In this document: piece after piece, positions 93 through 62,450 of the stretch | How positions within the stretch are numbered: position 1 is the first letter of the stretch | Layout of the letters: each line of letters opens with the position of its first letter | Source of the DNA: Bacilli bacterium | GTDB lineage: Bacteria > Bacillota_I > Bacilli_A > RF39 > UBA660 | Assembly: GCA_017527675.1 (NCBI GenBank) | Contig: JAFXPU010000004.1 | Coordinates: 1 to 64,000, forward strand | Direction of reading: 5' to 3' | Length of the DNA: 64,000 bases | The notes under the pieces: generated by a model | The model's input: only the letters and a program-made list of their open reading frames with translations | The model's database searches: none | Told to the model about the DNA's origin: nothing | Program-made: the position numbers and the translations under genes

Positions 93-187
93 AATCTACT
101 GTCTTTTTTTATTATGTCTCCTATTTGGGGTTCACATCATTTATATTATCTTTTTTTTTATGCTATAATGTATATAGAGGGATAAAT

Positions 188-637
188 ATGGATAAAGATG
201 AATTAATATATATATCAAAAAATACTGTTGGTAAGGGAGAAGGTTATGGAACACCAAACGAACATTCATTAATGACTTCTTCAGAATTTATTTATCGTGT
301 AACCGGTATGGATCAAATATTGGATATTATTGAATGTGGTTATGTTAGACCTAAAGGATATGGTAAAAGATTTAGTAGGGTAGGCCCTGTTGTTTATTGG
401 TCTCAAGGTGGTGGTAAACATCATTATGATGATAAAAGACCTGTTATAATGGCTAAAAGTGATAAAATTAAGGATGGCCAAATAGGTTGTATATCTATTG
501 ATGAATTGGAAGCAATATGGATGTATAATGAAGAAAAAGAAGTATATGAGAATAAGTTAAAAGAAATATTAAATATTCATTTAGGTATGCAAAATGATAA
601 AAAAATAGAAGAAAACATTAATTCAAAGAGTAAATAA
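188..637 (+). CDS. Conserved hypothetical protein, 149 aa
   Basis: The start is the ATG at 188, preceded by AGAGGGAT; an in-frame upstream extension has no ribosome site. The soluble protein has a compact motif-rich centre (SSEFIYRVTG, ECGYVRPKGYGKR, VVYWSQGGG) and a Lys/Glu-rich tail. The pattern of a helix ending in a Gly turn followed by an aromatic strand is loosely reminiscent of ADP-ribosyltransferase-fold proteins, but no catalytic set can be assigned, so function is unknown. A TATAAT at 164-169 is a likely -10 box. The gene sits just outside the left end of the 10-kb element and seems to belong to the host chromosome. A stem-loop terminator overlaps its stop codon. Confidence 0.65.
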   Translation: MDKDELIYISKNTVGKGEGYGTPNEHSLMTSSEFIYRVTGMDQILDIIECGYVRPKGYGKRFSRVGPVVYWSQGGGKHHYDDKRPVIMAKSDKIKDGQIGCISIDELEAIWMYNEEKEVYENKLKEILNIHLGMQNDKKIEENINSKSK

Positions 638-651
638 TATTTACTCTTTTT
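625..651. terminator. Terminator overlapping the stop of the 149-aa gene
   Basis: Ten-base arms AAAGAGTAAA (625-634) and TTTACTCTTT (640-649) close a 5-base loop, followed by T residues. Confidence 0.6.
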
Positions 652-698
652 TATTCACCAAATAATATTATAATCATAAATTAATATAGGTGATTTAA

Positions 699-1010
699 AT
701 GGCTAAAAAAATAGTAATTGATCCTGGACATGGTGGAACTGATCCAGGAGCATTAGGAAATGGTCTTAAAGAAAAAGATTATACTTTAAAAATAAGCGAA
801 TATATGGCTGATAGGTTTAATGAATTAGGAATACCTGTTGCTTTAACGAGAGATGAAGATATTACTTTATCGCCAACAGAACGTGTTAATAGAGTATTAA
901 ATGCATTTGGTAATGATCCAGATGTTATAGTAATATCTAATCACTTAAATGCAGGTGGTGGCGAAGGCTCTTGTGGTAAATTAACTTTCTTCGAGAAATA
1001 TATATGTTAA
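699..1010 (+). pseudogene. N-acetylmuramoyl-L-alanine amidase, 5' fragment interrupted by mobile element
   Basis: This is the N-terminal part of a zinc amidase (Amidase_3 family) that cleaves the lactyl-peptide bond of peptidoglycan. IVIDPGHGG carries the first zinc His, the following KEKDY the zinc Glu, and VISNHLNAGG the next zinc His. Homology stops after residue 87 (Ala-Gly-Gly at 951-959). The remaining residues to the stop at 1010 are encoded by the inserted element. The missing part, with the catalytic Glu (VEYGF) and three LysM repeats, lies 10 kb away at 10990-11781 in the compatible frame. As arranged, this fragment lacks the catalytic Glu and wall-binding domains and should be inactive. 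Start ATG 699 follows ATAGGTGATTTAA. Confidence 0.92.
966..977 (+). repeat. Left attachment-site arm (attL side)
   Basis: GGCTCTTGTGGT is the inverted partner of ACCACTAGAGCC at 10965-10976, with 11 of 12 positions matching. It lies 5 bases inside the crossover core. Confidence 0.75.
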
Positions 1011-1025
1011 ACTACCAAAATATGA

Positions 1026-1031
1026 TATAAT
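1026..1031 (+). promoter_or_regulatory. Possible -10 box of the cyclase operon
   Basis: TATAAT lies 75 bases before the first cyclase ATG, just inside the element. No convincing -35 hexamer is placed 16-18 bases upstream, so the call rests on the -10 box and position. Confidence 0.35.
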
Positions 1032-1044
1032 CTAATTATAAGAT

Positions 1045-1087
1045 AGCAGTATCGTCTTATTTTAAGATGGATACTGCTTATTTTTTG
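1045..1087 (+). terminator. Leader terminator or attenuator upstream of cyclase operon
   Basis: AGCAGTATC (1045-1053) pairs with GATACTGCT (1070-1078). An inner TCTTA/TAAGA stem extends it, and TTATTTTTT follows. It lies between the candidate -10 box and the cyclase gene. It may end transcription read in from the amidase fragment or act as an attenuator for the defence operon. Confidence 0.6.
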
Positions 1088-1105
1088 AAGTAAAGGAAGT
1101 GAAAC

Positions 1106-2455
1106 ATGAGTTTTGTAAAAAGTGATTTTGAAAATTTAGATAGTCAATTATATAAAATTACTTCACAAAAAGTAGAAGAAATAACTATTAGTAATAATGT
1201 ACCTACAGTAGAAAGTTTGAAAAACACTAATTTGGTTAATGTAATTGATGCAACTATATTATTTATAGATATAAGAAAATCAACGGAATTGACTGATGAA
1301 AGTAAACCAAAAACTATGGTTAAAATATATAGATCATTTATGAGAATGGCAGTGGAATGTGTAAGAAAGAATAATGGTGTTACTAGACAATTTATAGGTG
1401 ACAGAATAATGGCTGTTTTTTATGATATCATTGATGAAGACGGAAATATTATGATTAAATCAGTTGATAGTGCTGTTAATTGTGCAAGGACATTACAAAC
1501 ATGTATAAGTTTTTCACTAAATAAAAGATTAAAAGAAAATGTGGCTGGAAAAATGATATCTTGTGGAATAGGTATAGATTCTGGTAAAATTTTAGTTTCT
1601 AAGGTTGGAATGTATGGTTTAGAAACAAATGACGATAAAGAAAACGAGACAGATTGCGTGTGGATTTCAAAAGTAACAAATTATGCTAGTAAATATGCTG
1701 ACATAAGTGAAGGTAATGAAATATTTATTTCTGAAAAAGTTTATGAAAACATGTCTGAGTACTTGCAAAATTATTCAAATTGGAATAAAGTAATAAGAAA
1801 AAAAGGTAATAATACATATTTTGGATATTGTACTAAAGATTTTTATCTTGATTTTGCAAACGAATTCGATAATGAATACAAATTAGAAAATAATAATTTG
1901 ACAGATTCGGAATCAGAATTAGCATCTATAATAGATAAATTAAATGAAAAATATAATGAATTAAAAATAAAAGAAGTAAAGCTAACAGAAAAAGAAAATA
2001 CTATAAATACCGATAGTATTAATTTAAAAAATTTTCTTGATGAAATATATGATAGCTATTTTATAATTATAAGAGAATTATTTTTGCAGGATGAATTGTT
2101 AAAAAAAATGGGGTTTGAAAATGTTTCCAAAATACTTAATTCACTATATGATGTTGGCAAGTTAAAAGGAAAAAGTAGAGATGAAATTAATGAGTTAATA
2201 CTTCCTAATTTAGTAGATATATATAATACTTTTTCATCATATGCTGACAGTTATAAATACATGATGAAAATGATTAAAACAAGTGATTGGGTAATTATTA
2301 GAAAAGAGACTATTAAATGGTCATATGAAAACCATGAAAGTGATACATTAAAAAGAGAATTGGATAAAAGAATTGAAGGCTCTTTAAGCACTAATGAACA
2401 AAATGATTGGAAAAGATATAAGAATGAAGTTATAAAGATATTGGAGGAAAAGTAG
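1106..2455 (+). CDS. Class III nucleotide cyclase with C-terminal helical domain (Pycsar-like), 449 aa
   Basis: Residues about 45-235 form a class III nucleotidyl cyclase domain. The metal-binding aspartates are visible as Asp55 in ILFIDIRKST and Asp99 in RQFIGDR. GIGIDSGKIL and VWISKVTNYASK follow. In the usual Asn-x3-Arg transition-state motif, Asn192 is kept but the Arg position is Lys196. Residues about 260-300 are a charged coiled coil, and the last 150 residues are an unrecognised helical domain. The gene is first in a tight operon: its TAG is one base before the ATG of a DUF5706-type membrane protein, followed by a second cyclase. By analogy with Pycsar it would make a cyclic pyrimidine (or other) nucleotide on phage infection. 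Nucleotide specificity cannot be read from sequence. The start follows AAAGGAAGTG. Confidence 0.85.
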   Translation: MSFVKSDFENLDSQLYKITSQKVEEITISNNVPTVESLKNTNLVNVIDATILFIDIRKSTELTDESKPKTMVKIYRSFMRMAVECVRKNNGVTRQFIGDRIMAVFYDIIDEDGNIMIKSVDSAVNCARTLQTCISFSLNKRLKENVAGKMISCGIGIDSGKILVSKVGMYGLETNDDKENETDCVWISKVTNYASKYADISEGNEIFISEKVYENMSEYLQNYSNWNKVIRKKGNNTYFGYCTKDFYLDFANEFDNEYKLENNNLTDSESELASIIDKLNEKYNELKIKEVKLTEKENTINTDSINLKNFLDEIYDSYFIIIRELFLQDELLKKMGFENVSKILNSLYDVGKLKGKSRDEINELILPNLVDIYNTFSSYADSYKYMMKMIKTSDWVIIRKETIKWSYENHESDTLKRELDKRIEGSLSTNEQNDWKRYKNEVIKILEEK

Positions 2456-2456
2456 T

Positions 2457-3011
2457 ATGAAAAAAAGTAAAGAAATATATGATTTAGAACATGCTTACAA
2501 AATCTTAGAAAATATTAATATGTGGATAAATAATTCAGATACTAAGTCATCAATAATGTTAGGTTTAGTTGGTGTTGTATTTACAATATTATTTAGCAAT
2601 TTAAAATTTATTGATTCAATGATTAAAGTTGTTACCAATTGTTGTGTTAAGATAACATTTTCTGATTTATTGTATTTGTTAATGACTGCAATCTCACTTA
2701 TGATATTATTTAGTGGAATATATATGCTTATTAGAGTATTAATTCCAAAACTAAAATTAAATATTAATAATAATGATTCTGTCATATATTTTGGAAGTAT
2801 AGGTAAATATGAGTCAGTTAATGATTTTAAAGGAAAAGCATTGTGCATAAAAAAAGAAGAATTATTGGATGATCTGTTAAATCAAATATATATAAATTCC
2901 AAAATATGTATGAAAAAGTTTAACAATTACAATGTTGGAATAAGAAGTCTCATAGTTGGTATAATATCATTTGTTTTGCTTTATTTAATAGGATTATTTA
3001 TATATTTATAG
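2457..3011 (+). CDS. Pycsar effector-like membrane protein (DUF5706/PycTM type), 184 aa
   Basis: The layout is that of PycTM-like effectors: an N-terminal helix, then NMWINNSDTKSS leading into TM1 (about residues 33-52), TM2 (about 70-95), a soluble segment with VIYFGSIGKYES, a helix containing QIYINSKICMKKFNNYN, and a final TM (about 163-183). In described Pycsar systems such proteins sense the cyclic nucleotide and depolarise or breach the membrane to abort infection. Here it sits between two cyclase genes, 1 base after the first and 12 bases before the start of the second, so all three are almost certainly co-transcribed. Family assignment is by motif memory, not by a search. Confidence 0.75.
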   Translation: MKKSKEIYDLEHAYKILENINMWINNSDTKSSIMLGLVGVVFTILFSNLKFIDSMIKVVTNCCVKITFSDLLYLLMTAISLMILFSGIYMLIRVLIPKLKLNINNNDSVIYFGSIGKYESVNDFKGKALCIKKEELLDDLLNQIYINSKICMKKFNNYNVGIRSLIVGIISFVLLYLIGLFIYL

Positions 3012-3023
3012 TAGGTGGATTAT

Positions 3024-3758
3024 ATGAAGTATGATTATAGAAAAGGAAAGGAAAATATAGACCTAATATTAAATAATAATACTGATATATTAGAAAAAGA
3101 TATTCCGAAAAATGATGATGAGTTTACTTATGATAATGGTATTAAAAGTTGGGTTGGTTCAATCTTTGTAGATATTATTGATAGTACAGGTTTAATCCAA
3201 AATTCTGATGAATTGGAGGTTTCTAAAATTTTAAGAAGCTTTTCTTCTGAAATAATATCCATTATGAACAATAGTGAAAATGTAAGAGAAATTGGAATTA
3301 GAGGAGATTGTGTTTATGGGGTCTTTTTCTGCCCAACAAAAGAATCTACATATGAATTAGCAAGCATTTCTTTTTATATTAATACATTAATTAAAATGTT
3401 GAACAAACAATTTGTAAAATATAATTTACATAAAATTGATGTTGGAATAGGTGTCGCTATAGGTAAACATAAGGATTTAATAGTCAAAGCTGGGAAAAAG
3501 GGAACAGGTATTAATGATAAAATATGGATTGGTGATGCAGTGGTAGATGCCTGTAACATAGCAAACAAAGCGGGTAGAAATAATAATGATAGAATTGGTT
3601 TTTCATCTAATGCTTATAAGAATTTTATTGATATATTGCAAAATAATAATAAAACTAAGGATGTAACTAAGTGGTTTACATATAATTTTTATGATAATGT
3701 GTATTATGCAGATATTGTAAAAAGTGAATTTAATGAGTGGGTAGAAGAAAACTTGTAA
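3024..3758 (+). CDS. Second class III nucleotide cyclase (PycC-like), 244 aa
   Basis: Compact cyclase, essentially one catalytic domain. Asp50 in GSIFVDIIDST and Asp95 in IRGDCVYGVFF are the expected metal ligands. VGIGVAIGKHKDL, AGKKGTGINDK and IWIGDAVVDAC follow the order typical of Pycsar cyclases. At the Asn-x3-Arg transition-state motif, Asp175 and Ile179 appear instead, so the canonical pair is missing. This raises the possibility that it works as an asymmetric partner of the 449-aa cyclase. ATG 3024 is preferred over the in-frame GTG at 3015 because TAGGTGG overlaps that GTG and sits 5 bases before the ATG. A bidirectional terminator follows. Confidence 0.82.
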   Translation: MKYDYRKGKENIDLILNNNTDILEKDIPKNDDEFTYDNGIKSWVGSIFVDIIDSTGLIQNSDELEVSKILRSFSSEIISIMNNSENVREIGIRGDCVYGVFFCPTKESTYELASISFYINTLIKMLNKQFVKYNLHKIDVGIGVAIGKHKDLIVKAGKKGTGINDKIWIGDAVVDACNIANKAGRNNNDRIGFSSNAYKNFIDILQNNNKTKDVTKWFTYNFYDNVYYADIVKSEFNEWVEENL

Positions 3759-3762
3759 AAAT

Positions 3763-3797
3763 AAAAAAGAAGACTAATTAAATTTAATCTTCTTTTT
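3763..3797. terminator. Bidirectional terminator between cyclase operon and methyltransferase
   Basis: AAAAAGAAGA and TCTTCTTTTT arms flank a short AT loop between two convergent genes. Confidence 0.65.
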
Positions 3798-5028
3798 CTA
3801 TTATTTTTTCTAATTCTATTCCTATTTTCTCTATTATTCCTACAACTAAAGCATTACCCATCATGAAGTTTCTTTTCTTATCAGTCATTCCTGTATTAGT
3901 CCAGTTATCAGGGAAACAATTTATTCTCTCACATTCAATTGGAGTTAATAATCTAATCTTTTTAGTTTTATAATCTTCAACTATATGAGTAGTTCTACTT
4001 ATTCCACCCTCACTAGTTAACATTGTTCTAGCTGGAGCCTCTAAATTATCGGGACATGGCATAGCACCCTCTGTATAAAAATATTCTTCTCCATTTGGTT
4101 TAACTCTTGGAATTCTTTTATTACCTTTTAAGTATTCAAACTTTTTATAAGTTTCATCATTTAAAAAAAACTTTTTATCAACTTCTTCGTGTTGAATAAT
4201 TTTCTTTAATGGAAAGACTTCATTACAATCTGCTGATACTTTTGAAGTATATACTTTACCATTCATCATAATTCCAGCATTATAAAATTGTGCTTTAAAC
4301 TTATCACTTACTTCAACTAAATCTTTAAATGAATCTTTTGATAAATTAGTTGTATTAAATTCTAATTCAACATCTTTAATTGGGAATTGTTTAACAAACA
4401 TTCCATCTTTAAAAATTATATCTTTAGGATTACTTTTGGATAATGATTTATAATACTCAGTAGATTTATGATAAGCAAATATAAATACTCTTCTTCTTTT
4501 TTGTGGTAAACCATATTCACCAGCATTAATAACTCGCCATTGAACAGCATATCCATTATCCATAAAACTTCTTAAGATAATACCGAAATCTCTTCCTCTT
4601 TGTTTAGCAGGAGATAATAATAATCTATCAACATTTTCTAATAAAACAAATGGTGGCTTCTTAGCTTTTAAAATATCATTGATAGCCCACCATAAAACTC
4701 CTTTTTTCCCTTCAATACCTTTACTATTTGAAAGAGTTTGAGCTACTGAATAATCTTGACATGGAAAACCACCAACTAAAAGTGTATGATTTGGGATTTC
4801 TTTTTTATTAACTTGGAATATATCAACATTACTTGCATCTTTATCTCCAAATCTTTTAACATAACATTCAAAAGCTTCTTGAGTTTTTGTTGCAGGTTCC
4901 CATTGATTAGCCCATACAAATTTCCAATTTCCATTTTCTTTAACTTTATCGTTTATAAGTTTAACTTTATTTAAACCACATCTAAATCCACCAACACCAG
5001 CAAATAGCTCTACTACAGTTTTTTCCAT
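3784..5028 (-). CDS. DNA (cytosine-5)-methyltransferase, probably GATC-specific, 414 aa
   Basis: All main C5-methyltransferase motifs are present: ELFAGVGGF (I), GGFPCQDYSVAQ with catalytic Cys90 (IV), ENVDRLL (VI), QKRRRVFIFAY (VIII), and a C-terminal MMGNAL motif (X). The target-recognition region lies about residues 190-330. It is divergent from a Sau3AI/MutH-like nuclease gene, and M.Sau3AI-type enzymes methylate the cytosine of GATC; that specificity is inferred from the partner. Start 5028 follows a strong AGGAGG (5038-5043 on the opposite strand). Its promoter has a GATC inside the -35 box, suggesting control by methylation or by the enzyme itself. Confidence 0.92.
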   Translation of the reverse strand: MEKTVVELFAGVGGFRCGLNKVKLINDKVKENGNWKFVWANQWEPATKTQEAFECYVKRFGDKDASNVDIFQVNKKEIPNHTLLVGGFPCQDYSVAQTLSNSKGIEGKKGVLWWAINDILKAKKPPFVLLENVDRLLLSPAKQRGRDFGIILRSFMDNGYAVQWRVINAGEYGLPQKRRRVFIFAYHKSTEYYKSLSKSNPKDIIFKDGMFVKQFPIKDVELEFNTTNLSKDSFKDLVEVSDKFKAQFYNAGIMMNGKVYTSKVSADCNEVFPLKKIIQHEEVDKKFFLNDETYKKFEYLKGNKRIPRVKPNGEEYFYTEGAMPCPDNLEAPARTMLTSEGGISRTTHIVEDYKTKKIRLLTPIECERINCFPDNWTNTGMTDKKRNFMMGNALVVGIIEKIGIELEKIIEKED

Positions 5029-5068
5029 GATTTTATACCTCCTGACATTGTTTATATTCACTAAATAT

Positions 5069-5097
5069 ATTATAATATATTTGATTGAAAAGATCAA
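5069..5097 (-). promoter_or_regulatory. Methyltransferase promoter with GATC in the -35 box
   Basis: Read on the minus strand, TTGATC (5092-5097) lies 17 bases before TATAAT (5069-5074), close to consensus. The presumed recognition site GATC (5092-5095) is inside the -35 hexamer. Confidence 0.65.
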
Positions 5098-5141
5098 CAT
5101 TTGACTATATTATTATATAATATTGACTTAAAAAGATCAAC
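5081..5141. repeat. Two operator-like repeats containing GATC
   Basis: TTGATTGAAAAGATCAAC (5081-5098) and TTGACTTAAAAAGATCAAC (5123-5141) are near copies. Each is an imperfect palindrome (TTGAT...ATCAA in the first). They overlap the methyltransferase -35 box and the upstream region of the nuclease gene. A third GATC is at 5182-5185, just before the nuclease ribosome site. They look like binding sites for an autoregulator. Confidence 0.55.
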
Positions 5142-5199
5142 CTTATACTTATATTTTAAACTAAATTTTTAATTAAAACAAGATCGAAAGGAGAATTTT

Positions 5200-6582
5200 A
5201 TGAAAAAAGGTAGATTATATGATAGACAAGAAATTGAACTTATTGCTAAATCTGCAATTGGTAAATCATTAAATGATATTTTAAATGAAGAATTAGTAAC
5301 TATAGAAGATAAAGAAGCCAATAAAGGTGGATTTGGGCAACTAATAGAGAAGTATCTTTTTGGTATGGATAATAATAGTGATTCTGAACCTGATTTTATG
5401 CCAGCTGGTATTGAATTAAAAGTTACTCCATATAAAAGAATTAAAAAGAACGAATTGTCTGCTAAAGAAAGACTTGTGTTAAATATAATTGATTATGAAA
5501 CTGAATATAAAAATGAATTTAGAAGTAGTCACTTTTGGTATAAAAATAATAAGATTCAACTTTTATGGTATTTATGGGAGGCAGGTAAAGATAAAAAAGA
5601 TTTAAAGATAACTCATGAAAAGTTATTAGAACTTGCAAAAAATGAAGATTTAAAACAAATAGAAGAAGACTGGAATTTAATTATTAAAAAGATTAGAGAC
5701 GGTAAGGCCCACGAAATATCTGAAGCTGATACAATGTATCTTGGAGCTTGTTCAAAAGGTGCTAATGCTTTATCCACAAGAAAACAACCATTTAGTGATA
5801 TTCCCGCAATGCAAAGAGCATTTTGTTTTAAAAATTCTTATATGACTCAGTTAGTAAGAAAATATATAGGTAATTATTCTGATGTTGAAAAAGTATTAAA
5901 AAATACTACAGATTCATTTAGTGAATTTGTTAATAGTGTTATAGCTAAATATAAAGGTAAAACTCAAAAAGAATTAATGAAAGAGTTTGGAATTGAATCA
6001 ACTGCTAAAAGTATTAATAGTATGTTGATAAACAGAATGTTTAATGTTAAAAGTGAATTAGATAAAACAGATGAATTCCAAAAAGCAAATATAGTTCCAA
6101 AGACTATTAGAATAGAAGAAAATGGTAGAATAAAAGAATGCATTTCATTTCCAGCGTTTGAATTCACTGATATAGTTGAACAGGATTGGGAAACTTCTGA
6201 ATTAAAAGAACAATTTGAAACAACTAAATATATGTTTTTCATCTTTAAATGTGAAAATGGAGAATATGTTTTTAAAGATATAAAAATATGGAATATGCCA
6301 GAAATGGATATTCAAACTTGGGTTATGGATATGTGGAAGAAAACATATAATACAATCAAAACAGGTAATATAGTAAGGTATATCAAAGATGGAAAAAGAA
6401 AAACCAATTTTGTTGGTTCAAGTGAAAATAGAGTATGCCATGTAAGACCTCATGGAAGAGATTCAAAAGATACATTTAAATTGCCAGTAGCTGATAAATT
6501 AACTGGTGCAACTGAATATACTAAACATTGTTTTTGGATAAATAATAGTTATATTAAAGAGATATTTAATGAATATTTATAA
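5200..6582 (+). CDS. Sau3AI/MutH-family type II restriction endonuclease, 460 aa
   Basis: The N-terminal MutH-like domain has Glu50 (FGQLIEKYLFG), Asp65 (EPDFMPAGIELK), Glu72 and Lys74. The D-x6-E-x-K spacing matches MutH and Sau3AI. Length is close to Sau3AI (about 490 aa), whose C-terminal half is a second, catalytically inactive MutH-like fold that binds DNA; the region after about residue 240 would match it. Predicted to cut unmethylated GATC and to pair with the divergent methyltransferase. Start ATG 5200 follows AAAGGAG. The 170-base gap between the two starts holds both promoters and three GATC sites. A stem-loop terminator follows at 6620. Confidence 0.88.
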   Translation: MKKGRLYDRQEIELIAKSAIGKSLNDILNEELVTIEDKEANKGGFGQLIEKYLFGMDNNSDSEPDFMPAGIELKVTPYKRIKKNELSAKERLVLNIIDYETEYKNEFRSSHFWYKNNKIQLLWYLWEAGKDKKDLKITHEKLLELAKNEDLKQIEEDWNLIIKKIRDGKAHEISEADTMYLGACSKGANALSTRKQPFSDIPAMQRAFCFKNSYMTQLVRKYIGNYSDVEKVLKNTTDSFSEFVNSVIAKYKGKTQKELMKEFGIESTAKSINSMLINRMFNVKSELDKTDEFQKANIVPKTIRIEENGRIKECISFPAFEFTDIVEQDWETSELKEQFETTKYMFFIFKCENGEYVFKDIKIWNMPEMDIQTWVMDMWKKTYNTIKTGNIVRYIKDGKRKTNFVGSSENRVCHVRPHGRDSKDTFKLPVADKLTGATEYTKHCFWINNSYIKEIFNEYL

Positions 6583-6619
6583 AAAAATAAAAAATTTTTT
6601 TAGTGATTTTTCAAAAATG

Positions 6620-6642
6620 GTGCATATTTTTGCACTTTTTTC
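6620..6642 (+). terminator. Terminator after the restriction endonuclease
   Basis: GTGCA (6620-6624) and TGCAC (6631-6635) form a short stem followed by a run of T. Confidence 0.5.
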
Positions 6643-7018
6643 TGTTTTTTTATTTCTTTGTAGTAAAAGGGAAAATTGATGATAAAGTGAAGTATAAATC
6701 ACTTTTAAATTAAAGGTTAAAGTACCATTTAAAATGAATGGACAAATAAAATTTTTTATGATAAAGTTGCTATAATAAGTAAAAAATATGACAAAAAAAA
6801 GAGAAAAAAACGAGAAAAAATGAAACTTGCACAATAAAAAACTTTCTGTTAAACTTGATACAATAGGTGATAAATATATACAAGATGGATAAGTTTTAAA
6901 CATCCCAACAAAATCTCAATATTTTATGTATTGGGATTTTTTATTTGCCTATTTTTAAATATCTTATTAAAGATAATTCACCTATCTGGGATAAATTTTG
7001 CAAGTGCAAAATAAGTTT
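6643..7018. other. Gene-free AT-rich stretch with inverted repeats
   Basis: No convincing gene is seen. The stretch holds AAGTGA/TCACTT (about 6685-6703), a terminator-like hairpin AATCTCAATA/TATTGGGATT with T-run (6911-6943), and the palindrome ATTTTGCA-AG-TGCAAAAT (6995-7012). With the large dyad at 7019-7069 and the downstream replication-type HTH gene, it could be an origin or transfer region of the element; this is inference. Confidence 0.4.
6911..6943 (+). terminator. Terminator-like hairpin in the gene-free stretch
   Basis: AATCTCAATA pairs with TATTGGGATT (one wobble or mismatch) and is followed by TTTTTT. It may end a short leader or untranslated RNA. Confidence 0.5.
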
Positions 7019-7069
7019 GGTACCATAAGAAACATTGATTTTACTTAGTAAAATTAGTGTTACGGTACC
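7019..7069. repeat. Large imperfect dyad upstream of replication-type gene
   Basis: The left arm 7019-7044 starts with GGTACC and ends ATTTTAC; the right arm 7048-7069 starts GTAAAAT and ends GGTACC; TTA is the loop. Arms match except for a 4-base GAAA bulge and three mismatches. It could be a replication or transfer nick site or an operator. Confidence 0.6.
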
Positions 7070-7093
7070 ATCGTCTTATCCTGATAGAAAAAT

Positions 7094-7115
7094 ACCAATT
7101 AAAAATTGGTGTTTT
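7094..7115 (+). repeat. Leader hairpin before the HTH gene
   Basis: ACCAATT (7094-7100) and AATTGGT (7104-7110) close a 3-base loop and GTTTTT follows. It lies 36 bases upstream of the likely start, so it may be a weak attenuator. Confidence 0.4.
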
Positions 7116-7145
7116 TGGGATTTTAGAGAAAGGAGGAAAAAGTAT

Positions 7146-7433
7146 TTGAAAAAAGATTTTATTATTATTCCAAGAGAATTAATGAAAGATAACAGTTTGA
7201 CTAAATCAGACTGTTTTTTATTTGGTAATATTTATAATCTTAGTAGATTAAATGGTTATTGTTTTGCTACTAATAAAGTATTATCTAATTTATCTTTTGT
7301 TAAAATAAGAACAATTAATTATTCTTTAAAGAGATTAAAAGAAAAAGGATATATTAATGTTGAAAGAGTTAAAAATAATGACTTAATTCAAAGAAGAATA
7401 TATGTGAATGATATGCAAGATGATTCAGGTTAG
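7146..7433 (+). CDS. Small HTH protein resembling the N-terminus of replication initiators, 95 aa
   Basis: The best start is TTG 7146, nine bases after AGGAGG (7131-7136); the upstream open extension runs through hairpins and has no ribosome site. IIPRELMKDNSLTKSD, LFGNIYNLS, YCFATNKVLS, VKIRTINYSLKRL and EKGYINVER match the winged-helix domain at the N-terminus of phage and plasmid replisome-organiser proteins (HTH_36 type). The C-terminal part of such initiators is absent; the protein stops right after the wing. It may regulate replication or transcription of the element. It lies in the recombinase-proximal block, upstream of the OB-fold gene. Confidence 0.65.
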   Translation: MKKDFIIIPRELMKDNSLTKSDCFLFGNIYNLSRLNGYCFATNKVLSNLSFVKIRTINYSLKRLKEKGYINVERVKNNDLIQRRIYVNDMQDDSG

Positions 7434-7547
7434 TATGCAGTATTGTGCATTAATTATATGAATAGATATGCATGTATAATAAATAAATTAAAAGATAATT
7501 AATATATAAAAAATTATATATATATAATTAAACAGGAGGTTTTGTTT

Positions 7548-7982
7548 ATGATTTATAATGAAATATTATTATCTGGTGAGGTAAATAATATTATAATTAA
7601 TAATAGATATATTACATTAGGACTAACTTGTAAGAAGTATTCACCTAATGAAAATAGTAATATAGTTTATGCTAGTTTAAGAGTTTATAAAGATCTTTAT
7701 GAAAATAATAAAGATCTTTTTTTATTGGGTAAAAATGTATATTTAAAAGGATATTTAAATTCTTATTCTGATAAGAATAAAACAATACACAATTATGTAA
7801 CAGTAACCAAAATAGAAAATTATGATTTTATTAGTGCTGATGGTCCAGTTATTGGTGTTGATTATGATGGAGTAGAAACTTGGAATGGTAAAAGATGTGA
7901 ATCAGTTCCATTAACAGAAGAAGAATTAGCTGAACTAGAAGAATTACTTAAACCATTTAAGGATGGTGATTCTAGTGAATAA
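7548..7982 (+). CDS. OB-fold single-strand DNA-binding-like protein, 144 aa
   Basis: The N-terminal 100 residues have the strand order of an SSB or primosomal OB fold (EILLSGEVNNI, YITLGLTCKKYS, NIVYASLRVYKDL, GKNVYLKGYLNSYS, YVTVTKIENYDF). A short acidic tail follows (EEELAELEELLKPF), as in SSB partner-binding tails. Start ATG 7548 is eight bases after AGGAGG. It probably binds single-stranded DNA during replication or excision of the element. An overlapping small reading frame begins just before its stop. Homology is weak; the call rests on strand pattern and context. Confidence 0.55.
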   Translation: MIYNEILLSGEVNNIIINNRYITLGLTCKKYSPNENSNIVYASLRVYKDLYENNKDLFLLGKNVYLKGYLNSYSDKNKTIHNYVTVTKIENYDFISADGPVIGVDYDGVETWNGKRCESVPLTEEELAELEELLKPFKDGDSSE

Positions 7983-8088
7983 TCCTTTTATGGTAGACAT
8001 AAATTTAAGTATGAAAGAAGATAAAAAGGAAATTTTTAAAGAATTAATATTAAATTATTTATTAAAGCAAATTATGGAAGAAAAATAA
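7975..8088 (+). CDS. Possible 37-aa protein overlapping the OB-fold gene
   Basis: A GTG start at 7975 overlaps the end of the OB-fold gene by 8 bases, with AAGGA about a dozen bases upstream, so translation could be coupled. The product is mostly charged helix (MKEDKKEIFKEL, LLKQIMEEK). Small proteins of this kind often precede the recombinase in serine-recombinase elements. No function is assigned. Confidence 0.4.
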   Translation: MNNPFMVDINLSMKEDKKEIFKELILNYLLKQIMEEK

Positions 8089-8134
8089 TTCTAATGATTT
8101 GCTTATTTTTATTTATCATGGTAAGATGCACTTG

Positions 8135-8150
8135 TCTCGAAGAAAGTTAA
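8135..8150. repeat. 16-bp inverted copy of the element's left-end sequence
   Basis: TCTCGAAGAAAGTTAA (8135-8150) is the exact reverse complement of 981-996, next to the left attachment site. It lies 26 bases before the recombinase start codon, overlapping its promoter or leader region. Confidence 0.7.
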
Positions 8151-8175
8151 GTGCTATAAAATGAGGAGGTAGAAG

Positions 8176-9855
8176 ATGAATTATAGTTACTTAACAAATA
8201 TGAATTATAATGCAGGTATTTATATTAGACTTTCTCAAGAAGATAAAGATAAAAAATATGAGTCAGATAGTGAAAGTGTTACTAATCAAAAAGAAATATT
8301 AAGAGACTATTGTTTAAAAAATGGATTTAATTTAATAGATGAGTATGTAGATGATGGTTATTCAGGAACTAATTTTGATAGACCAGGATTTATTAGGATG
8401 ATTGAAGATATAAAAAATAAAAAGATTAATCTTGTAGTAGTAAAAGATTTATCTAGATTAGGTCGAGATCATGTAATGACTGGATATTATATTGAAACTT
8501 ATTTTCCTGAAAACAAAGTAAGATTTATATCAATTGTTGAAAATTACGATAGTATGAAAAATCAAGCAAGTAATGATTCATCAACATTTATCATTGCTTG
8601 TAATGACTATTATAGTAAGCAAAACTCATTGAAGATAAGAAATGTATTAGATTCTAAAAGAAAAGATGGTAAATTTATAGGTAGTAAGCCATGTTATGGT
8701 TATATGAGAGACCCAGAAGATAAAGGACATCTAATTATAGACCCTAATACAGCCCCTTATGTTAAGCAAATGTTTGAATGGAGAGCAAATGATATAGGAA
8801 TATCTGAAATAGCAACTCGTCTTACTATATTAGGAGCACCAACACCAAGTGCTTATAAAAATCTACCAATATCTTCAAGAGTAAAAGAAAAAAATGTATG
8901 GACAATACATTCAGTTAAAAAGATATTAGAAAATAGAATGTACACTGGTGATATGGTACAACATACTCAAACTAGCATAAGTTATAAATCCAAAAAGAAG
9001 ATAACACTTGATCAAAGTTTATGGGTAATAGTAGAAAATACACATGAACCATTAGTAGATAAAGAGACATTTAGAATAATAAATAAAAAAAGGGATAATC
9101 ATAATAGAACAGTTACTAAAAAAACAGAAAGACCAATTAGATTACTCGAAGGATTAATCTATTGCAAGGAGTGTGGAAATAGATTAGGTGTAATATATAG
9201 AAATAATCATGACTATTGGACTATTAATTGTAATAGATATGCAAGAGACCCAATTAGAGGAAGATGCAAAGCTCATTTCTTTCCATATGATTATTTCGAA
9301 GAAGAAGTATTAGAAGAATTAAACAAACTATTATCTGATTTATTTAAAGGATTAAGTATTAAAGAATTAAATGAAGAAATAGTTAATAGAACAAATTCTG
9401 GTACCAAATCACTTGATGAAATAAAGAAAGATATAGAAAAAGAAATTTTAAAATTATCTTCTAATATTCAAACAGTTTATCAAGATAGAATTGATGGTAA
9501 TATTTCCCTAGATTCATATAAAATGATAATATCTCCTTATGAACAAAAACTGAGAAACTTAAAAGATAAATTAGAAGAAATAGAACTTGAAATTTTAAAA
9601 AGAAAAAATAGTGCTAATAAAATACCAAATTATACAAAGAAGATAAAAGAATTATTAAATATAGAAAAACCAAATAGAGACTTGTTATTTACTATAATAG
9701 ATAGAATAGAAGCAGATGAAGACAGAAATATAACAATTAAATTTAAATACAAAATACTAGAAGATTATACTTTTAAATATATTGATAAAAATCCAATAAG
9801 AAATCCTTATGGAAGATGTGGAAAAAAGATTAATTGTAATAAAAATATGTTATAA
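8176..9855 (+). CDS. Large serine recombinase (integrase/excisionase of the element), 559 aa
   Basis: Resolvase domain about residues 11-160 with nucleophile Ser20 in YIRLSQED and VVVKDLSRLGRDH; recombinase domain (PF07508 type) about 185-300; zinc ribbon (IYCKECGNRLG with paired cysteines downstream) about 320-370; then a coiled coil about 400-510. This is the order of TndX/TnpX-like large serine recombinases. Start ATG 8176 follows GAGGAGG. It should catalyse recombination at the AGGTGGTG core that bounds the element. An inverted copy of the left-end sequence just upstream suggests control linked to the attachment site. The gene appears intact. Confidence 0.95.
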   Translation: MNYSYLTNMNYNAGIYIRLSQEDKDKKYESDSESVTNQKEILRDYCLKNGFNLIDEYVDDGYSGTNFDRPGFIRMIEDIKNKKINLVVVKDLSRLGRDHVMTGYYIETYFPENKVRFISIVENYDSMKNQASNDSSTFIIACNDYYSKQNSLKIRNVLDSKRKDGKFIGSKPCYGYMRDPEDKGHLIIDPNTAPYVKQMFEWRANDIGISEIATRLTILGAPTPSAYKNLPISSRVKEKNVWTIHSVKKILENRMYTGDMVQHTQTSISYKSKKKITLDQSLWVIVENTHEPLVDKETFRIINKKRDNHNRTVTKKTERPIRLLEGLIYCKECGNRLGVIYRNNHDYWTINCNRYARDPIRGRCKAHFFPYDYFEEEVLEELNKLLSDLFKGLSIKELNEEIVNRTNSGTKSLDEIKKDIEKEILKLSSNIQTVYQDRIDGNISLDSYKMIISPYEQKLRNLKDKLEEIELEILKRKNSANKIPNYTKKIKELLNIEKPNRDLLFTIIDRIEADEDRNITIKFKYKILEDYTFKYIDKNPIRNPYGRCGKKINCNKNML

Positions 9856-9888
9856 TATATAGCAAACACTTTAAATAGGGGGATTTTT

Positions 9889-10656
9889 ATGAAAAAGACT
9901 AATAAAGATGAAATATTAATTGAAAAACCAATCGATATAATTAATAAATATTATAAATTATTTATTGCATGCGGCTCGGCTTTATGTATTGTAATATTAT
10001 ATATCTTAAGATTTTTTGAGTATATCACAGCTAGTTATTATTTTTCGTATTATGGCTTGAATATTGGATTATATAGATTTAATGATCAAGGTTTTATTTA
10101 TTCATTATGTTTGTCAATTATATTTTTAGTTGCATTTTTATCTATTTTATTTAGTACAAATAGTTTAGCTAAAAAGTTAAAAGAAAAGGTGAATCGAAAA
10201 ATAATCAGAGAATTACTAACAATAATCTTTTATAATATAATATTGAGTTTTATATATTTTAAATTTGTTAATTTATTCAGTTTTGTTATATTTAATATTG
10301 CATTACTAATAACAGAATTAATTTATTCATATTTCTTTTTTAAAAAAGATGAAATCACGGATAATGATGTGGCAAAAGCTAAAATTAAGAACTATTTTAA
10401 AGCATTACCTTTTTTAATAATTTTGTTATTACTATTATATGGTGGTAGAACTTATTCACAGTTAAAACTAATTAGAAATTATAATATTATAGGAAATGAT
10501 AAAGTTGTAGTATATTCAAATAATGATTATTACATTACTTTAGATTGTGATATAAAAGATAATAATTTGACAATATATAAGGGAAGACAGGAAAAAATAG
10601 ATAATAAAAATGTATATACTGTATCTAAAACTTTTGAAAAAGTTGAATTAAAATAA
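9889..10656 (+). CDS. Polytopic membrane protein of unknown function, 255 aa
   Basis: Unrecognised. About six hydrophobic segments are seen (near residues 24-42, 62-85, 103-122, 123-145 and 165-180, plus a shorter one) with charged loops. A C-terminal domain of about 70 residues (VVVYSNNDYYITLDCDIKD and after) is probably extracytoplasmic and beta-rich. A GGGGG ribosome site at 9878-9882 precedes the ATG. It is the only cargo gene between the recombinase and the 70-aa gene. Its position in a defence element makes a membrane effector, immunity or exclusion role possible, but nothing in the sequence proves this. Confidence 0.6.
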   Translation: MKKTNKDEILIEKPIDIINKYYKLFIACGSALCIVILYILRFFEYITASYYFSYYGLNIGLYRFNDQGFIYSLCLSIIFLVAFLSILFSTNSLAKKLKEKVNRKIIRELLTIIFYNIILSFIYFKFVNLFSFVIFNIALLITELIYSYFFFKKDEITDNDVAKAKIKNYFKALPFLIILLLLLYGGRTYSQLKLIRNYNIIGNDKVVVYSNNDYYITLDCDIKDNNLTIYKGRQEKIDNKNVYTVSKTFEKVELK

Positions 10657-10749
10657 TTACGAAAATATTACAAAAAAAAGACAGAAATTTGGCAATATTT
10701 AATAATTGAAATGTTTTATAATAATTAAATAAGGAAAGGAGAGATAGAC

Positions 10750-10962
10750 ATGACAGTAGAACAAGCAATAAATATTGATAATAACTGGAAAGAGTTAACA
10801 AAGAAAATGATTGATAATTGTAGGAACTTCAATGATTTTACAAAGGAATTATTAAAATTATCTGCAGAACTTCAACATGAACAAAATAAAAGTGCTATAC
10901 TTGCTAAATATCAAATGATGCAAGCTATTGAACAACAAAATAAGGTTAATAATAACAATTAA
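10750..10962 (+). CDS. Small helical protein beside the right attachment site, 70 aa
   Basis: A strong AAAGGAGAG precedes ATG 10750. The product is a soluble, mostly helical protein (AINIDNNWKELTKKM, FTKELLKLSAELQHE) with a Gln/Asn-rich tail. The gene ends 2 bases before the attP arm at 10965. Small basic or helical proteins next to attachment sites are typical of recombination directionality factors, but this protein shows no recognisable relative, so that role is only a candidate. Confidence 0.55.
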   Translation: MTVEQAINIDNNWKELTKKMIDNCRNFNDFTKELLKLSAELQHEQNKSAILAKYQMMQAIEQQNKVNNNN

Positions 10963-10964
10963 TA

Positions 10965-10976
10965 ACCACTAGAGCC
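10965..10976 (+). repeat. Right attachment-site arm (attR side)
   Basis: ACCACTAGAGCC, inverted partner of the left-end arm at 966-977. The core AGGTGGTG follows at 10983-10990. Confidence 0.75.
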
Positions 10977-10989
10977 GTCACGAGGTGGT

Positions 10990-11781
10990 GATGGTGCTGA
11001 AGTTATTTATGCACTTCGTAATTCTAATACACTATCAAATAAAATATTGGCGGCATTAAGTGATGCTGGTCAAAATGTTAGAAAAGTATATCAAAGAAGA
11101 TTACCTTCTAATCCAAATAAAGATTATTATTTTATGCATCGTAATACAGGAGATACCGAAAGTGTTATAGTTGAATATGGCTTTATTGATAGTACAGGTG
11201 ATGATGCATATCAAATACAGAATAATTGGGAAAAATACGCTGAAGCGGTTGTTAAAGCTATAACAGAGTATGCTGGTTATAATTATTATCCTGAAAAAGA
11301 GGGTATTTATGTTGTTAAAAAAGGTGATACATTGTATGGTATAGCTCAAAAGTATAATGTTAGTCTAAATGAACTAAAAAAAATTAACAAGCTAGATAGT
11401 AATACAATAAGCATAGGTCAAATACTAACAATACCAGGTTTAATTGATATTGATGAAATAGATGAAGGTAATAATAATTCTATAAATAAAAATGTTCATA
11501 TTGTAAAAAAAGGTGATACCTTATATAGTATTGCTAAAATGTATAATACAACAATAAATAAAATAAAAGAATTAAATAATATAACTAGTAATATTTTAAG
11601 TATAGGTCAAGAACTATTAATTCCTGCTGATGATTATAATACTTATGAAGTTAAAAGTGGTGATACCTTATATAGCATAGCTAGAAGATTTGGTACAACT
11701 GTTGATGAAATAAAAAAACTTAATAATTTAATTAATAATTTATTAGGTATTAGTCAAATTATTAAGATACCAATAAAATAA
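10990..11781 (+). pseudogene. N-acetylmuramoyl-L-alanine amidase, 3' fragment with three LysM repeats
   Basis: This is the remainder of the interrupted amidase. It opens with Asp-Gly-Ala-Glu-Val-Ile-Tyr and continues through QRRLPSNPNKDYYF and VIVEYGFIDSTGDD, where the Glu is catalytic. Three LysM peptidoglycan-binding repeats follow, each with a GDTLY core. No ribosome site or good start lies at the junction, so it is probably silent in the integrated state. Joined to 699-959 it gives a 350-aa enzyme with normal domain order. Codons downstream are intact, with no stops or frameshifts, which suggests the function is still selected, for example after excision. Confidence 0.92.
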
Positions 11782-23015: not shown

Positions 23016-23029
23016 ATAGTTAATATTTG

Positions 23030-23218
23030 TTTGAAGGAGTAATTATATAAGTCCTTTGAGAGAGTCTATGGTTGGTGAAAATAGATAGGGCATGTATAAT
23101 GAAGACATCAAACGTTAAATAAGCGTATTTCTGCGTTAAAGAAAAGAGTATAGAAATTCTATAGAAGTAGGGTGGTACCACGTTAAGCGTCCCTACATTT
23201 ATAGAATTTTTTTAATTT
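23030..23218 (+). promoter_or_regulatory. T-box riboswitch leader, Asp (GAC) specifier
   Basis: The T-box sequence GGGTGGTACCACG is at 23170-23182. Stem I elements (GAGAG, GGTTGGTGAAAAT) are at about 23058-23082. The specifier is GAC at 23104-23106, found by alignment with the Ile leader at 62262, where ATC occupies the same place. The terminator pairs ATTCTATA...GTAGGG with CCCTAC...TATAGAAT and ends in a T-run. Uncharged tRNA-Asp should favour read-through into aspS. Confidence 0.9.
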
Positions 23219-52164: not shown

Positions 52165-54297
52165 ATGAAAAAGAAATTACTTCAAGATGAATCATCTAAA
52201 ATGATAAAAAATTATTTATCTCATCTATTTAAACGTATATATAATTCTTATAATTATCTAAAATTAGATGAAGAAAAATATAATACTATTGTTTTAGAAG
52301 AAATAGAAAAAACTAAAAAAATTAAATCTGATGATTATGTTAAAAATCTTGAAATTAATATGCATCATCGTATGAATGAAATGGTTTTACATGAATTAAA
52401 AAGTAATAGTGAAACATTTCTTTTAAATTATTTAACTAGCCAAATTACTTATTGTCATAAAGTAAGTGATGCATTCCGTAATTATAATCAGTTAAATAGT
52501 TTTTTAAGTAAATATAACTATGCACCCAATATAGATACTTTAATGTATTTAATAAATAATAATAAAGTGCTTAATAAGACTGTGGAAATGTTATATGCTG
52601 ATAATAATATAATATCTAATAAAGTTAATGATGAATTATTAGAATCTTTAAAAGGTGCGTATTGTATAGTTAATAATATTGATATTGATCTAAATGATGA
52701 TATTAAAGAATATAATTGTGATGATAATACACCTGATTTAGATTCAACTAAAATGTATCTTCAGGAAATTCATAAAATACCTCTTCTTACAACAAGTGAA
52801 GAAAAGGAATTATTCATAAGATATCGTAATGGTGATTTAGATGCTAAAAAAGAAATAATTGAAAGAAATTTAAGATTAGTAGTATCAGTTGCACGTCGCT
52901 ATAAATCAAATCGTTTAACTCTTTTAGATAAAGTTCAAGAAGGTAACTTTGGATTAATGAAAGCTGTTGATCGTTTTGATGTTGATAAGAATTATAAATT
53001 TTCTACTTATGCCATTTGGTGGATAAGACAAACAATTGAAAGAGCTATTAATAATTATGATAGATTAGTAAGGTTACCAATATATTTATCGGATAGAATA
53101 AAAAGAATTAATTCTATAATAGATAAATATGAAAAAGCATATGGACGTGAACCAACTGCTGAAGAAATTGCTAAAGAATTAAAAATATCTGTTTCTAGTG
53201 TTTTAGAAATTAAAAAGAATATGCAAGAAACCGTAAGTATTAATACACCTATTGGTGATGAAAAAGAAACTGAATTAGCTGATTTTATCCCACAAATGGA
53301 AATTGATACTGAACAAAATTATATAGATGAAAATTTAATAATAGATTTTACTAAATTTTTTGATGAAGCTAAGTTAACCGAAAAAGAAAGAGATATTTTA
53401 TATTTAAGATATGGTTTTAATGATGAAGATCCTAAAACGTTAGAAGAAATTGGTAAAAAATACCATGTAACTCGCGAGCGTATTCGTCAGATACAAGCAA
53501 AAGCCTTAAATAAATTAAGACTTAATCCTAATATTAATAATTTCTCAAATTATATGAGTAATCCAGATAGATGTTTGGAGAATATACAAAATATGCGCAG
53601 CGAATACTATGGTATTTCAATAGAAGATGAAAAAGAGGAAGAAAATCCTGATACTAAGAAAAGAGGAAATAAGATGGTAAATAAAACTATTTATAAGTAT
53701 TTTAATGCTTATAGTAAACAAAAAATTGATTCTGTTATAGCTGAATTAAGTGAAGAAGAAAGAAATTTGATAACTAAAAGATATGGTAATGATTTAAATA
53801 ATCCAGTTGAAACTAGTTTAACAAAAGAAGAATACGCTAAATTCTATGGTGGTGTAATTCCTAAAATTAGAAGAAGATTAGAAGGTATTCAACCAAAAAT
53901 ATCTAAAAAGAAAGAAGAAAAAACTGAGGTATTAGAAACAGAATTAAAAGAAAGCAATATTGAAATAACTGATAAAACAGAATTAAAAGAAGAAAATAAA
54001 GTATTGGTAGAAAAAAATGAAGAAGATAAAGAATTAGATACATTATTATCATTATTTAGAACACCTAAGGTATTAGAATATATTCAGACAATGCCACCAA
54101 AAGAAGCAACAATTATTTATTTAAAATTAGGTTTTGTTAATGGTAAAAGATATACAACAATAGATATTGCAGAATTTTTAGATATTACAACATTTGAAGT
54201 AAGAGAAGTTACTAAGAAATTTTTATTAGGCTCAAAAGATATAATAACTGCTTCATTAGATGATGTTATTACTGAAGTAATAAATAAAACAAAATAA
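52165..54297 (+). CDS. Sigma-70 family RNA polymerase sigma factor with N- and C-terminal extensions, 710 aa
   Basis: The core about residues 190-460 is a group 1/2 sigma factor: region 1.2 (STKMYLQEIHKIPLLT), region 2 (NLRLVVSVARRYKSN, KFSTYAIWWIRQTIERAI), region 3 and region 4 (TLEEIGKKYHVTRERIRQIQ). About 190 residues precede it with no recognised motif. About 250 residues follow, including two segments that look like degenerate copies of region 4: LSEEERNLITKRYG...GGVIPKIRRRLEG and MPPKEATIIYLKLG...DITTFEVREVTKK, joined by a Lys/Glu linker. It could be the primary sigma (RpoD) or a specialised one; no other sigma is in the window. GTGGGGATGATGG precedes the ATG. Confidence 0.85.
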   Translation: MKKKLLQDESSKMIKNYLSHLFKRIYNSYNYLKLDEEKYNTIVLEEIEKTKKIKSDDYVKNLEINMHHRMNEMVLHELKSNSETFLLNYLTSQITYCHKVSDAFRNYNQLNSFLSKYNYAPNIDTLMYLINNNKVLNKTVEMLYADNNIISNKVNDELLESLKGAYCIVNNIDIDLNDDIKEYNCDDNTPDLDSTKMYLQEIHKIPLLTTSEEKELFIRYRNGDLDAKKEIIERNLRLVVSVARRYKSNRLTLLDKVQEGNFGLMKAVDRFDVDKNYKFSTYAIWWIRQTIERAINNYDRLVRLPIYLSDRIKRINSIIDKYEKAYGREPTAEEIAKELKISVSSVLEIKKNMQETVSINTPIGDEKETELADFIPQMEIDTEQNYIDENLIIDFTKFFDEAKLTEKERDILYLRYGFNDEDPKTLEEIGKKYHVTRERIRQIQAKALNKLRLNPNINNFSNYMSNPDRCLENIQNMRSEYYGISIEDEKEEENPDTKKRGNKMVNKTIYKYFNAYSKQKIDSVIAELSEEERNLITKRYGNDLNNPVETSLTKEEYAKFYGGVIPKIRRRLEGIQPKISKKKEEKTEVLETELKESNIEITDKTELKEENKVLVEKNEEDKELDTLLSLFRTPKVLEYIQTMPPKEATIIYLKLGFVNGKRYTTIDIAEFLDITTFEVREVTKKFLLGSKDIITASLDDVITEVINKTK

Positions 54298-54392: not shown

Positions 54393-54575
54393 TTAAGCAG
54401 CTTTTCTAGAAGCTTTATTTAATGTTCTCATTTCACGAGTAGTTGTTCTAACTTTAGTACCATCTTCTAATGTCATTACTTGTAAATTAACTTTTTGAGC
54501 ATGTTTAGTAGCACGGCATGAATGAGATCTTCTATTACCATGTAATGCAGTTTTGCTTGTTACTTTAGTTGCCAT
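54393..54575 (-). CDS. rpmB: 50S ribosomal protein L28, 60 aa
   Basis: Short basic protein: SKTALHGNRRSHSCRATKH, KVNLQVMTLEDGTKVR and TTREMRTLNKA are L28 signatures. AAGGAGG precedes the ATG. Confidence 0.94.
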   Translation of the reverse strand: MATKVTSKTALHGNRRSHSCRATKHAQKVNLQVMTLEDGTKVRTTTREMRTLNKASRKAA

Positions 54576-54713: not shown

Positions 54714-55172
54714 AATAGGATAGTATATTATGAAATAGAGGTAAAAAATACAGGAGATATACCTGCAACATTTAAAGTAGTAGAAGGAGATATACCAGGC
54801 TTTGAAATCTATGATATAGGTGAATTTACAAAAGTCGGAAACAACTATGAATTAAATGTTGAGTTAGAACCTGGAGATAGTAAAACATATAAGATAGGTT
54901 ATAAATGGAATCAAAAAGACTATGGAATAAGTACAAATAAAGTAGAAATAACAGAAGTAACAGGAAAAGAAGGATATCCAGAACCAGATGAAGATGATAA
55001 TAAATCAACAGCAACAGTAGAAACAAAGATACCAAAAGAAGTAATACCTGATACAATAATAATTCCAGATACAGTAGATAAGATAATGACAAGCATTATA
55101 ATATTTATAGGAAGTCTAATTGGAATCATAGTAAGTTTAATCTTAATTAAAAAGAAAAGAATGAATAATTAA
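54714..55172 (+). pseudogene. 3' fragment of a surface-protein gene with membrane anchor
   Basis: The open frame has no start. It reads YYEIEVKNTGDIPATFKVVE, EPGDSKTYKIGYKW and VEITEVTGKEGYPEPDED, then KEVIPDTIIIPDTVDK, a TM helix (MTSIIIFIGSLIGIIVSLIL) and a basic tail KKKRMNN. This is the C-terminal end of a DUF11-type wall or membrane surface protein. The upstream part is absent and replaced by 140 bases of unrelated AT-rich DNA after rpmB. Its last codons begin the 86-bp segment repeated before dinD. Confidence 0.75.
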
Positions 55173-61761: not shown

Positions 61762-62241
61762 ATGGAAAAGTTTAGCCGTGTACTTCGTGGGTATGATCCT
61801 GATGAAGTAAATGCATTTTTAGATCAAATAATTAGACAAGTTGAAGCAATGGTTAATGATATAAAAATTAAGGATGCCAAAATAGCTAGTTTAAAAGAAC
61901 AAGTTAATGGTATGAATGATGAAATAGCTAATGTTGACCATTTGAAAGAAAAACTTGCTCAATATGAAAGAATAGAAGGAACATTAAATAGAGCTATTAT
62001 TATGGCTCAAAAAACTTCTGATCAAATTAAATCTACGGCTCATCGCGAATCTGAAATACTAATCGAAGATGCAAAGAAAAATGCAAGTCGCATTGTTAAT
62101 GAAGCATTACTTAAGGCTGAAAAAACTGAAGCTGAAACAGCAATGCTAAGACGTAATATAAATGTATTTAAAAGAAAATTAAAAGATATCATTGAATCTC
62201 AATTAGAAATAGTTGAAGATATTGAAAAAGTTGAAATATAA
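61762..62241 (+). CDS. DivIVA-like coiled-coil protein, 159 aa
   Basis: EKFSRVLRGYDPDEVNAFLDQI is the membrane-curvature-binding head of DivIVA/GpsB proteins, followed by two coiled-coil stretches to the end. ATG 61762 is chosen because AGGAG lies 6 bases upstream. It acts in division-site or polar organisation. Confidence 0.88.
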   Translation: MEKFSRVLRGYDPDEVNAFLDQIIRQVEAMVNDIKIKDAKIASLKEQVNGMNDEIANVDHLKEKLAQYERIEGTLNRAIIMAQKTSDQIKSTAHRESEILIEDAKKNASRIVNEALLKAEKTEAETAMLRRNINVFKRKLKDIIESQLEIVEDIEKVEI

Positions 62242-62261
62242 AAACAAATGATGAAGACGTT

Positions 62262-62450
62262 AATTATGAATACTTAGTAGAGAGCCTATGGTTGGTGAGA
62301 ATAGGTAGGGATAGTAATTAAGGATCACTTCTGATGTTATTTAGGGATAAGCTAAATACGTTAACTTGCGTTAATAGATTAAGTGCATGAAATTCATGAA
62401 TTAAGGTGGTACCACGCGTAAGCGCCCTTAAATTTATGGATTTTTTTTTT
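62262..62450 (+). promoter_or_regulatory. T-box riboswitch leader, Ile (ATC) specifier
   Basis: Stem I GAGAG and GGTTGGTGAGAAT (about 62279-62301), specifier ATC at 62323-62325, T-box AAGGTGGTACCACG at 62403-62416. The TTAAGG/CCTTAA-type terminator ends in a run of ten T. It controls the CYTH gene and ileS. Confidence 0.92.

Follow-up and report, generated by a model that had tools for sequence, protein, structure and literature searches.

The window, which is the whole 64,000-nucleotide stretch analysed here, contains a complete open reading frame without internal stops that encodes a putative sigma-70 factor with a long C-terminal tail (Table 1). Regions 2, 3, and 4 are present in order and each exceeds its Pfam cut-off (whole-protein scores of 69.8, 72.4, and 95.9 bits for PF04542, PF04539, and PF04545, respectively), as does region 1.2 (PF00140), and the recognition helix of the true region 4 retains its promoter-contact residues (VTRERIRQIQAKAL). 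This arrangement, including the intact recognition helix, is that of the RpoD/SigA-type sigma-70 factors (groups 1 and 2), but the protein differs from them in having a 190-residue N-terminal extension, of which only the final stretch, continuous with region 1.2, aligns with the N-termini of primary sigmas, and a tail of 258 residues with two extra modules derived from region 4. The tail begins where region 4 ends at nucleotide 53520, the same position from which the first-pass annotation starts, and consists of a linker, module A (including LSEEERNLITKRYG), a Lys/Glu-rich linker, and module B (including MPPKEATIIYLKLG).

The sigma gene lies downstream of a polC-like gene and is followed by a small gene on the other strand (MATKVTSKTALHGNRRSHSC...) that resembles that of ribosomal protein L28 and sits directly behind it, and by nuclease-like and dnaE-like genes, all of these being assigned by sight. 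A 152-residue frame in the same region has no obvious start and looks like the C-terminus of a surface protein, with a repeat-like domain, a transmembrane helix, and a KKKRMNN tail; it reads as an orphan or truncated 3′ end. Elsewhere in the window there are two T-box leaders that score above the Rfam gathering threshold.

Table 1. Coordinates of the sigma factor gene, its parts, and other features in the window, followed by related loci (positions within the named locus).
Feature	Position	Strand	Basis
Sigma-70 factor gene with C-terminal tail derived from region 4, 710 aa	52165..54297	+	ORF call, Pfam
N-terminal extension, aa 1-190, common to long relatives	52165..52734	+	alignment A3
Region 1.2, aa 193-224	52741..52836	+	PF00140
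Region 2, aa 231-298	52855..53058	+	PF04542
Region 3, aa 311-385	53095..53319	+	PF04539
True region 4, aa 402-452, TRERIRQ recognition helix	53368..53520	+	PF04545, contact residues
Module A, aa 506-572: region 4.1 retained, helix-turn-helix predicted as one long helix	53680..53880	+	profile comparison, AF2
Module B, aa 621-710: region-4-like with altered DNA-contact positions	54025..54294	+	profile comparison, contact residues
L28-like gene	54393..54575	-	by sight
152 aa frame, orphan or truncated 3′ end	54714..55172	+	
T-box leader	23023..23197	+	Rfam
T-box leader	62239..62432	+	Rfam
Adjacent RpoD-type sigma genes of the host genome, contig C7 (L067)	3667-4839, 4857-6032		
Module-bearing sigma gene with primary-like core (L043, genome G088)	86-2236		
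Four tandem RpoD-type sigma paralogues (L044)	4039-11057		
Three tandem RpoD-type sigma paralogues (L049)	2622-7788		
Four tandem paralogues with weak module A matches (L115)	2851-9485		
Phosphoesterase genes with module A	L126 2491-3834, L127 2928-4229, L212 1352-2614, L216 2618-3847, L218 2537-3832		

The host genome (1.13 Mb in 24 contigs, 88.6% complete, 26% G+C) is tentatively placed in an RF39-like Bacilli lineage by its size, its G+C content, a PolC-like gene, and sporulation-type sigmas. It has nine matches to region 2, and the window protein is not its primary sigma factor. Two adjacent genes on contig C7, each encoding an RpoD-type protein of about 390 residues, score 402.7 and 344.2 bits against the RpoD model NF006666, compared with 278.1 bits for the window protein; none of the three reaches the model cut-off of 572, and the best RpoD candidate is the 391-residue product scoring 402.7 bits. 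The identification of the window protein as RpoD, and with it the comparison with primary sigmas drawn in the first-pass annotation, was therefore rejected, and its sequence is best called that of an alternative RpoD-type sigma factor. That annotation had considered the joint case of a primary sigma elsewhere in the genome and relatives devoid of the extension; a better primary candidate is indeed present, but many relatives are extended. Membership of the ECF sigmas, which contain regions 2 and 4 only, fails because regions 1.2 and 3 are present. ECF sigmas with C-terminal extensions that have a regulatory role are known, ECF41 being an example (PMC3426412, PMC8999054). The window protein is similar in carrying an appended C-terminal part, but the modules in that part have their own origin in region 4.

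Neither module passes the Pfam cut-off for region 4 as a single sequence (14.3 bits for module A and 14.8 bits for module B against PF04545; cut-off 24.1), and profiles were therefore built from relatives (27 aligned A modules and 18 B modules) and compared with a set of canonical region 4 sequences from further sigma factors, almost all of them encoded on IMG/VR contigs. With hhalign, run pairwise so that its E-values are not database E-values, module A matches canonical region 4 with a probability of 93.5% (score 36, 49 columns) and module B with a probability of 96.9% (score 53, 59 gapless columns), whereas the best of 60 column-shuffled controls per module reached 1.8% and 3.3%, respectively. 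In class genomes outside the host's family the module A profile hits ordinary sigma factors of about 430 residues in their region 4.1 (approximately profile positions 13-43, E-values of 1e-5 to 1e-4), and a narrower profile used in the phylum search finds the same region at 2.6e-7. On this profile evidence modules A and B are derivatives of region 4. A direct relation between the two is not recovered, the profile comparison of A with B failing at a probability of 5%, so they diverged either separately or long ago.

Module A is predicted by AF2, from the window sequence alone, to form three short helices (residues 10-13, 19-27, and 31-41) and a single 21-residue helix (55-75) in place of the helix-turn-helix (mean pLDDT 81.5, pTM 0.66); module B, also from a single sequence, is predicted poorly and without a confident fold. 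Foldseek searches of the PDB with both models return sigma chains or entries for sigma region 4 almost exclusively, but no match has an E-value of 0.001 or better and the TM-scores are low, such that these matches are supportive of a likeness to region 4 rather than proof of it. The first-pass annotation had described a protein continuing about 250 residues past a normal region 4, two tail segments repeating the region 4 pattern, and a helix replacing the helix-turn-helix turn in the first, and it was accurate on all three. When sigma70 is bound by AsiA, the helix-turn-helix of region 4 turns into a near-continuous helix, and the module A model resembles this form, a resemblance only. Region 4 is a docking surface for the beta flap tip helix and for the phage T4 protein AsiA, which remodels region 4 and thereby prevents it from contacting the promoter (PMC6755090); module A, too, probably cannot contact a promoter, although in the AsiA case the change is imposed by an added phage protein and in module A it is built into the sequence.

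The positions that read the -35 element, corresponding to R584, E585, R588, and Q589 of E. coli sigma70, retain the canonical residue in 46-50 of the 63 true region 4s of related sigmas, the exceptions including sigmas of the SigE/K type, for which a difference at these sites is typical. The module B residues are mostly acidic (E, E/Q, I/R, and E/D), and in module A, aligned there along the hhalign path, mostly I, P, R/K, and R/K. Because the module A model has no helix-turn-helix at this point, replacement refers to a change in structure as well as in residues. Median net charge falls from +3 in canonical region 4 to 0 in module A and -2 in module B; the module A of the window protein itself has a net charge of +4 and a basic end (IPKIRRRL), for which reason it may still bind DNA non-specifically. 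Given the replaced residues in both modules and their general retention in true region 4, -35 reading has probably been lost from modules A and B.

At E≤1e-10 module A is present in 42 of the 193 genomes of the host's family (counted from the search table; ordinary region 4 is part of a tally of 142/193 at E≤0.001). The architecture of a sigma factor with extra region 4 modules, for which the first-pass annotation had suggested a search, recurs in relatives. In an order-level sample it is found at E≤1e-7 in 58 of 241 genomes, every one belonging to the host's family. Among the matches listed for 346 class and 245 phylum genomes there is no full module A outside the family; those out-of-family matches are short or weak (best E-values of 1.5e-5 and 2.6e-7, respectively) and mostly fall on sigma region 4.1. 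Comparison of the tail with phage and plasmid records gave no match, module A was not found in IMG/VR, and matches of the full-length protein to IMG/VR are confined to the sigma core or to a portion of the N-terminal region, so a phage or plasmid origin of the tail was rejected. As far as these samples reach, the tail looks like a lineage-specific feature that is widespread in the family, if patchily distributed.

Module A occurs on several kinds of protein. The 61 carriers among the fetched loci, from 46 genomes, comprise 33 RpoD-type sigmas, eight SigE/SigK-type sigmas (e.g. L122, whose best NCBIfam match is SigE at 1.7e-59), five phosphoesterases, and 15 proteins without a recognised core. 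The phosphoesterases, from five genomes, are calcineurin-like (by PF00149 for L126 and by sequence motif only for the other four) and carry the module at the N-terminus. Copy number ranges from one in the window protein through three each in L048, L054, and L064 to seven, with two copies of module B, in L055 (1347 aa). L109 (1548 aa) has 14 copies and no sigma core, and L110 (1864 aa), located directly 3′ of a 949-residue sigma gene, has 16-20 depending on the score limit. Copy number also varies inside one genus (four in G422 and one in G507 at the threshold used), and all such counts may be affected by assembly errors in metagenome bins. Rows of tandem RpoD-type sigma paralogues are seen at two loci, one of four genes between those of isoleucyl-tRNA synthetase and pyruvate formate lyase (L044) and one of three (L049); at L115 four tandem paralogues of 532-551 residues have weak module A matches, and a Pfam scan of one gave no match.

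Repeats are more similar inside one protein than between genomes (median identities of 67% and 31%), and in genome G126 a 219-bp block with 95% DNA identity is common to L042, which is RpoD-type, and L122, which is of the SigE/K type. The block covers module A and reaches a contig end, the rest of the two loci being unaligned at the limit used, and points to recent transfer or conversion of the module, as a single case in a binned genome. Median dN/dS between repeats is 0.22-0.65 in five proteins and approximately 1.1 in a sixth with three pairs only. In L109 the stretch from region 4.1 to the end of the long helix has a pN/pS of 1.03 compared with 0.30 elsewhere in the repeat; because it was picked after viewing the alignment and is absent from the other array tested, it is a lead only. 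The array-bearing SigE/K-type cores form one clade and the RpoD-type cores are scattered, in a tree from which no number of origins is claimed since many forks are unresolved, primaries are few, and one entry marked as primary has a SigF/G-type core. In the tree the core of the module-bearing L043 falls with a primary-like sigma from a different genome (support 97/96), whereas its N-terminus and tail are those of the long family, and its core may have been replaced by recombination.

The genes neighbouring module-bearing genes vary between genomes, and those searched are ordinary (e.g. ValRS, IleRS, pyruvate formate lyase, pyruvate:ferredoxin oxidoreductase, and DNA ligase); no conserved partner gene that would be a candidate regulator was seen among the neighbours in the genomes compared. 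A defence-island reading was rejected, PADLOC yielding only generic MzaA matches to sigma parts. The window protein resembles MzaA of the MZA anti-phage system in that its sigma core, and only its core, matches the NCBIfam model, but the 237.8 bits are far below the cut-off of 800 and its neighbours are not MZA genes by size or sequence. A literature search on MG284/MPN403, a lead from NCBIfam, gave nothing relevant.

The reading we favour, at about even confidence, is that the tail is an exchangeable protein-docking arm on an alternative RpoD-type sigma and probably does not read promoters. We infer from the intact regions and contact residues that the protein acts as a sigma factor, with regions 2 to 4 binding RNA polymerase and reading the -10 and -35 elements as usual. 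The tail behind region 4 is the product of duplicated region 4, module A having retained the 4.1 helix and lost the helix-turn-helix and module B having retained the region 4 outline with altered DNA-reading positions; it is on these changes that a role in promoter reading appears improbable. Docking would use the protein-binding side of region 4, with a regulator or the beta flap, both named as options in the first-pass annotation, or other module-bearing proteins as candidate targets, and could provide control over when the holoenzyme acts. Within the family the tail is exchangeable, through its tandem multiplication and its occurrence on two sigma kinds, on phosphoesterases, and in arrays without a sigma core; copy numbers up to ~14-20, use on different sigmas, and core-less use suggest a lineage-specific and probably protein-docking element. 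The simplest interpretation is that the appended copies have probably lost DNA reading and kept or modified the docking role.

A rather unlikely alternative is that the modules are a built-in inhibitor that contends for the beta flap with the true region 4, or folds back on that region, so that the sigma is off until released. Module A keeps region 4.1, with an aromatic RYG motif at its flap-facing end (alignment A1). The regulatory C-terminal extensions of several ECF sigmas (PMC8999054) offer a parallel, but inhibition leaves the sigma-less arrays and the phosphoesterase-borne modules unexplained. That A and B instead bind further -35-like DNA, one of the contacts suggested in the first-pass annotation, or upstream DNA and extend the holoenzyme footprint is improbable; both modules descend from a DNA-binding domain and the module A of the window protein is basic, but the -35-reading residues are replaced (I-P-K in A, acidic in B), positive charge is lower, and the module A model has no helix-turn-helix.

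It is very improbable that the modules are decoys, soaking up phage anti-sigma factors or other proteins that attack region 4 and so shielding the true region 4. Phage proteins do target this region (AsiA, PMC6755090; G1 ORF67 with sigma A domain 4 in the PDB). A patchy distribution, many copies per protein, and arrays that lack a core would also fit, but the neighbours are housekeeping rather than defence genes and the PADLOC matches are generic. No such phage factor is known for these hosts. Equally hard to credit is a tail with no function of its own that arose by repeat slippage and is tolerated, since, although copy number varies widely and many family genomes lack the module, it is recognisable across many genera (mean column identity 45%; alignment A1), its repeats are mostly under purifying selection, the long frames stay open, and it is present on unrelated proteins.

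The docking-arm reading bears on how region 4 is understood. The usual description of a sigma-70 factor has a single region 4 that serves both as -35 reader and as a main docking site for anti-sigmas and activators; in the host's family these two jobs would be split between one reader and a variable number of copies that probably do not read DNA. Full-text searching of the open-access literature turned up no account of sigma factors in which region 4 is multiplied, and the results point to a large repeat-protein family in a small-genome lineage that is likewise without a description found there. A bolder and doubtful extension is that in this one family region 4 became a repeat module, with arrays of up to about 14-20 copies forming a common docking or decoy system near RNA polymerase in which copy number and a variable patch tune binding; if so, array modules, whether on sigmas, adjacent to them, or alone, would bind anti-sigmas, activators, or phage factors that target region 4, and should a role be found the sigma-less arrays might deserve more weight. 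As the extra copies sit on more than one sigma class, the role of region 4 other than DNA reading becomes testable.
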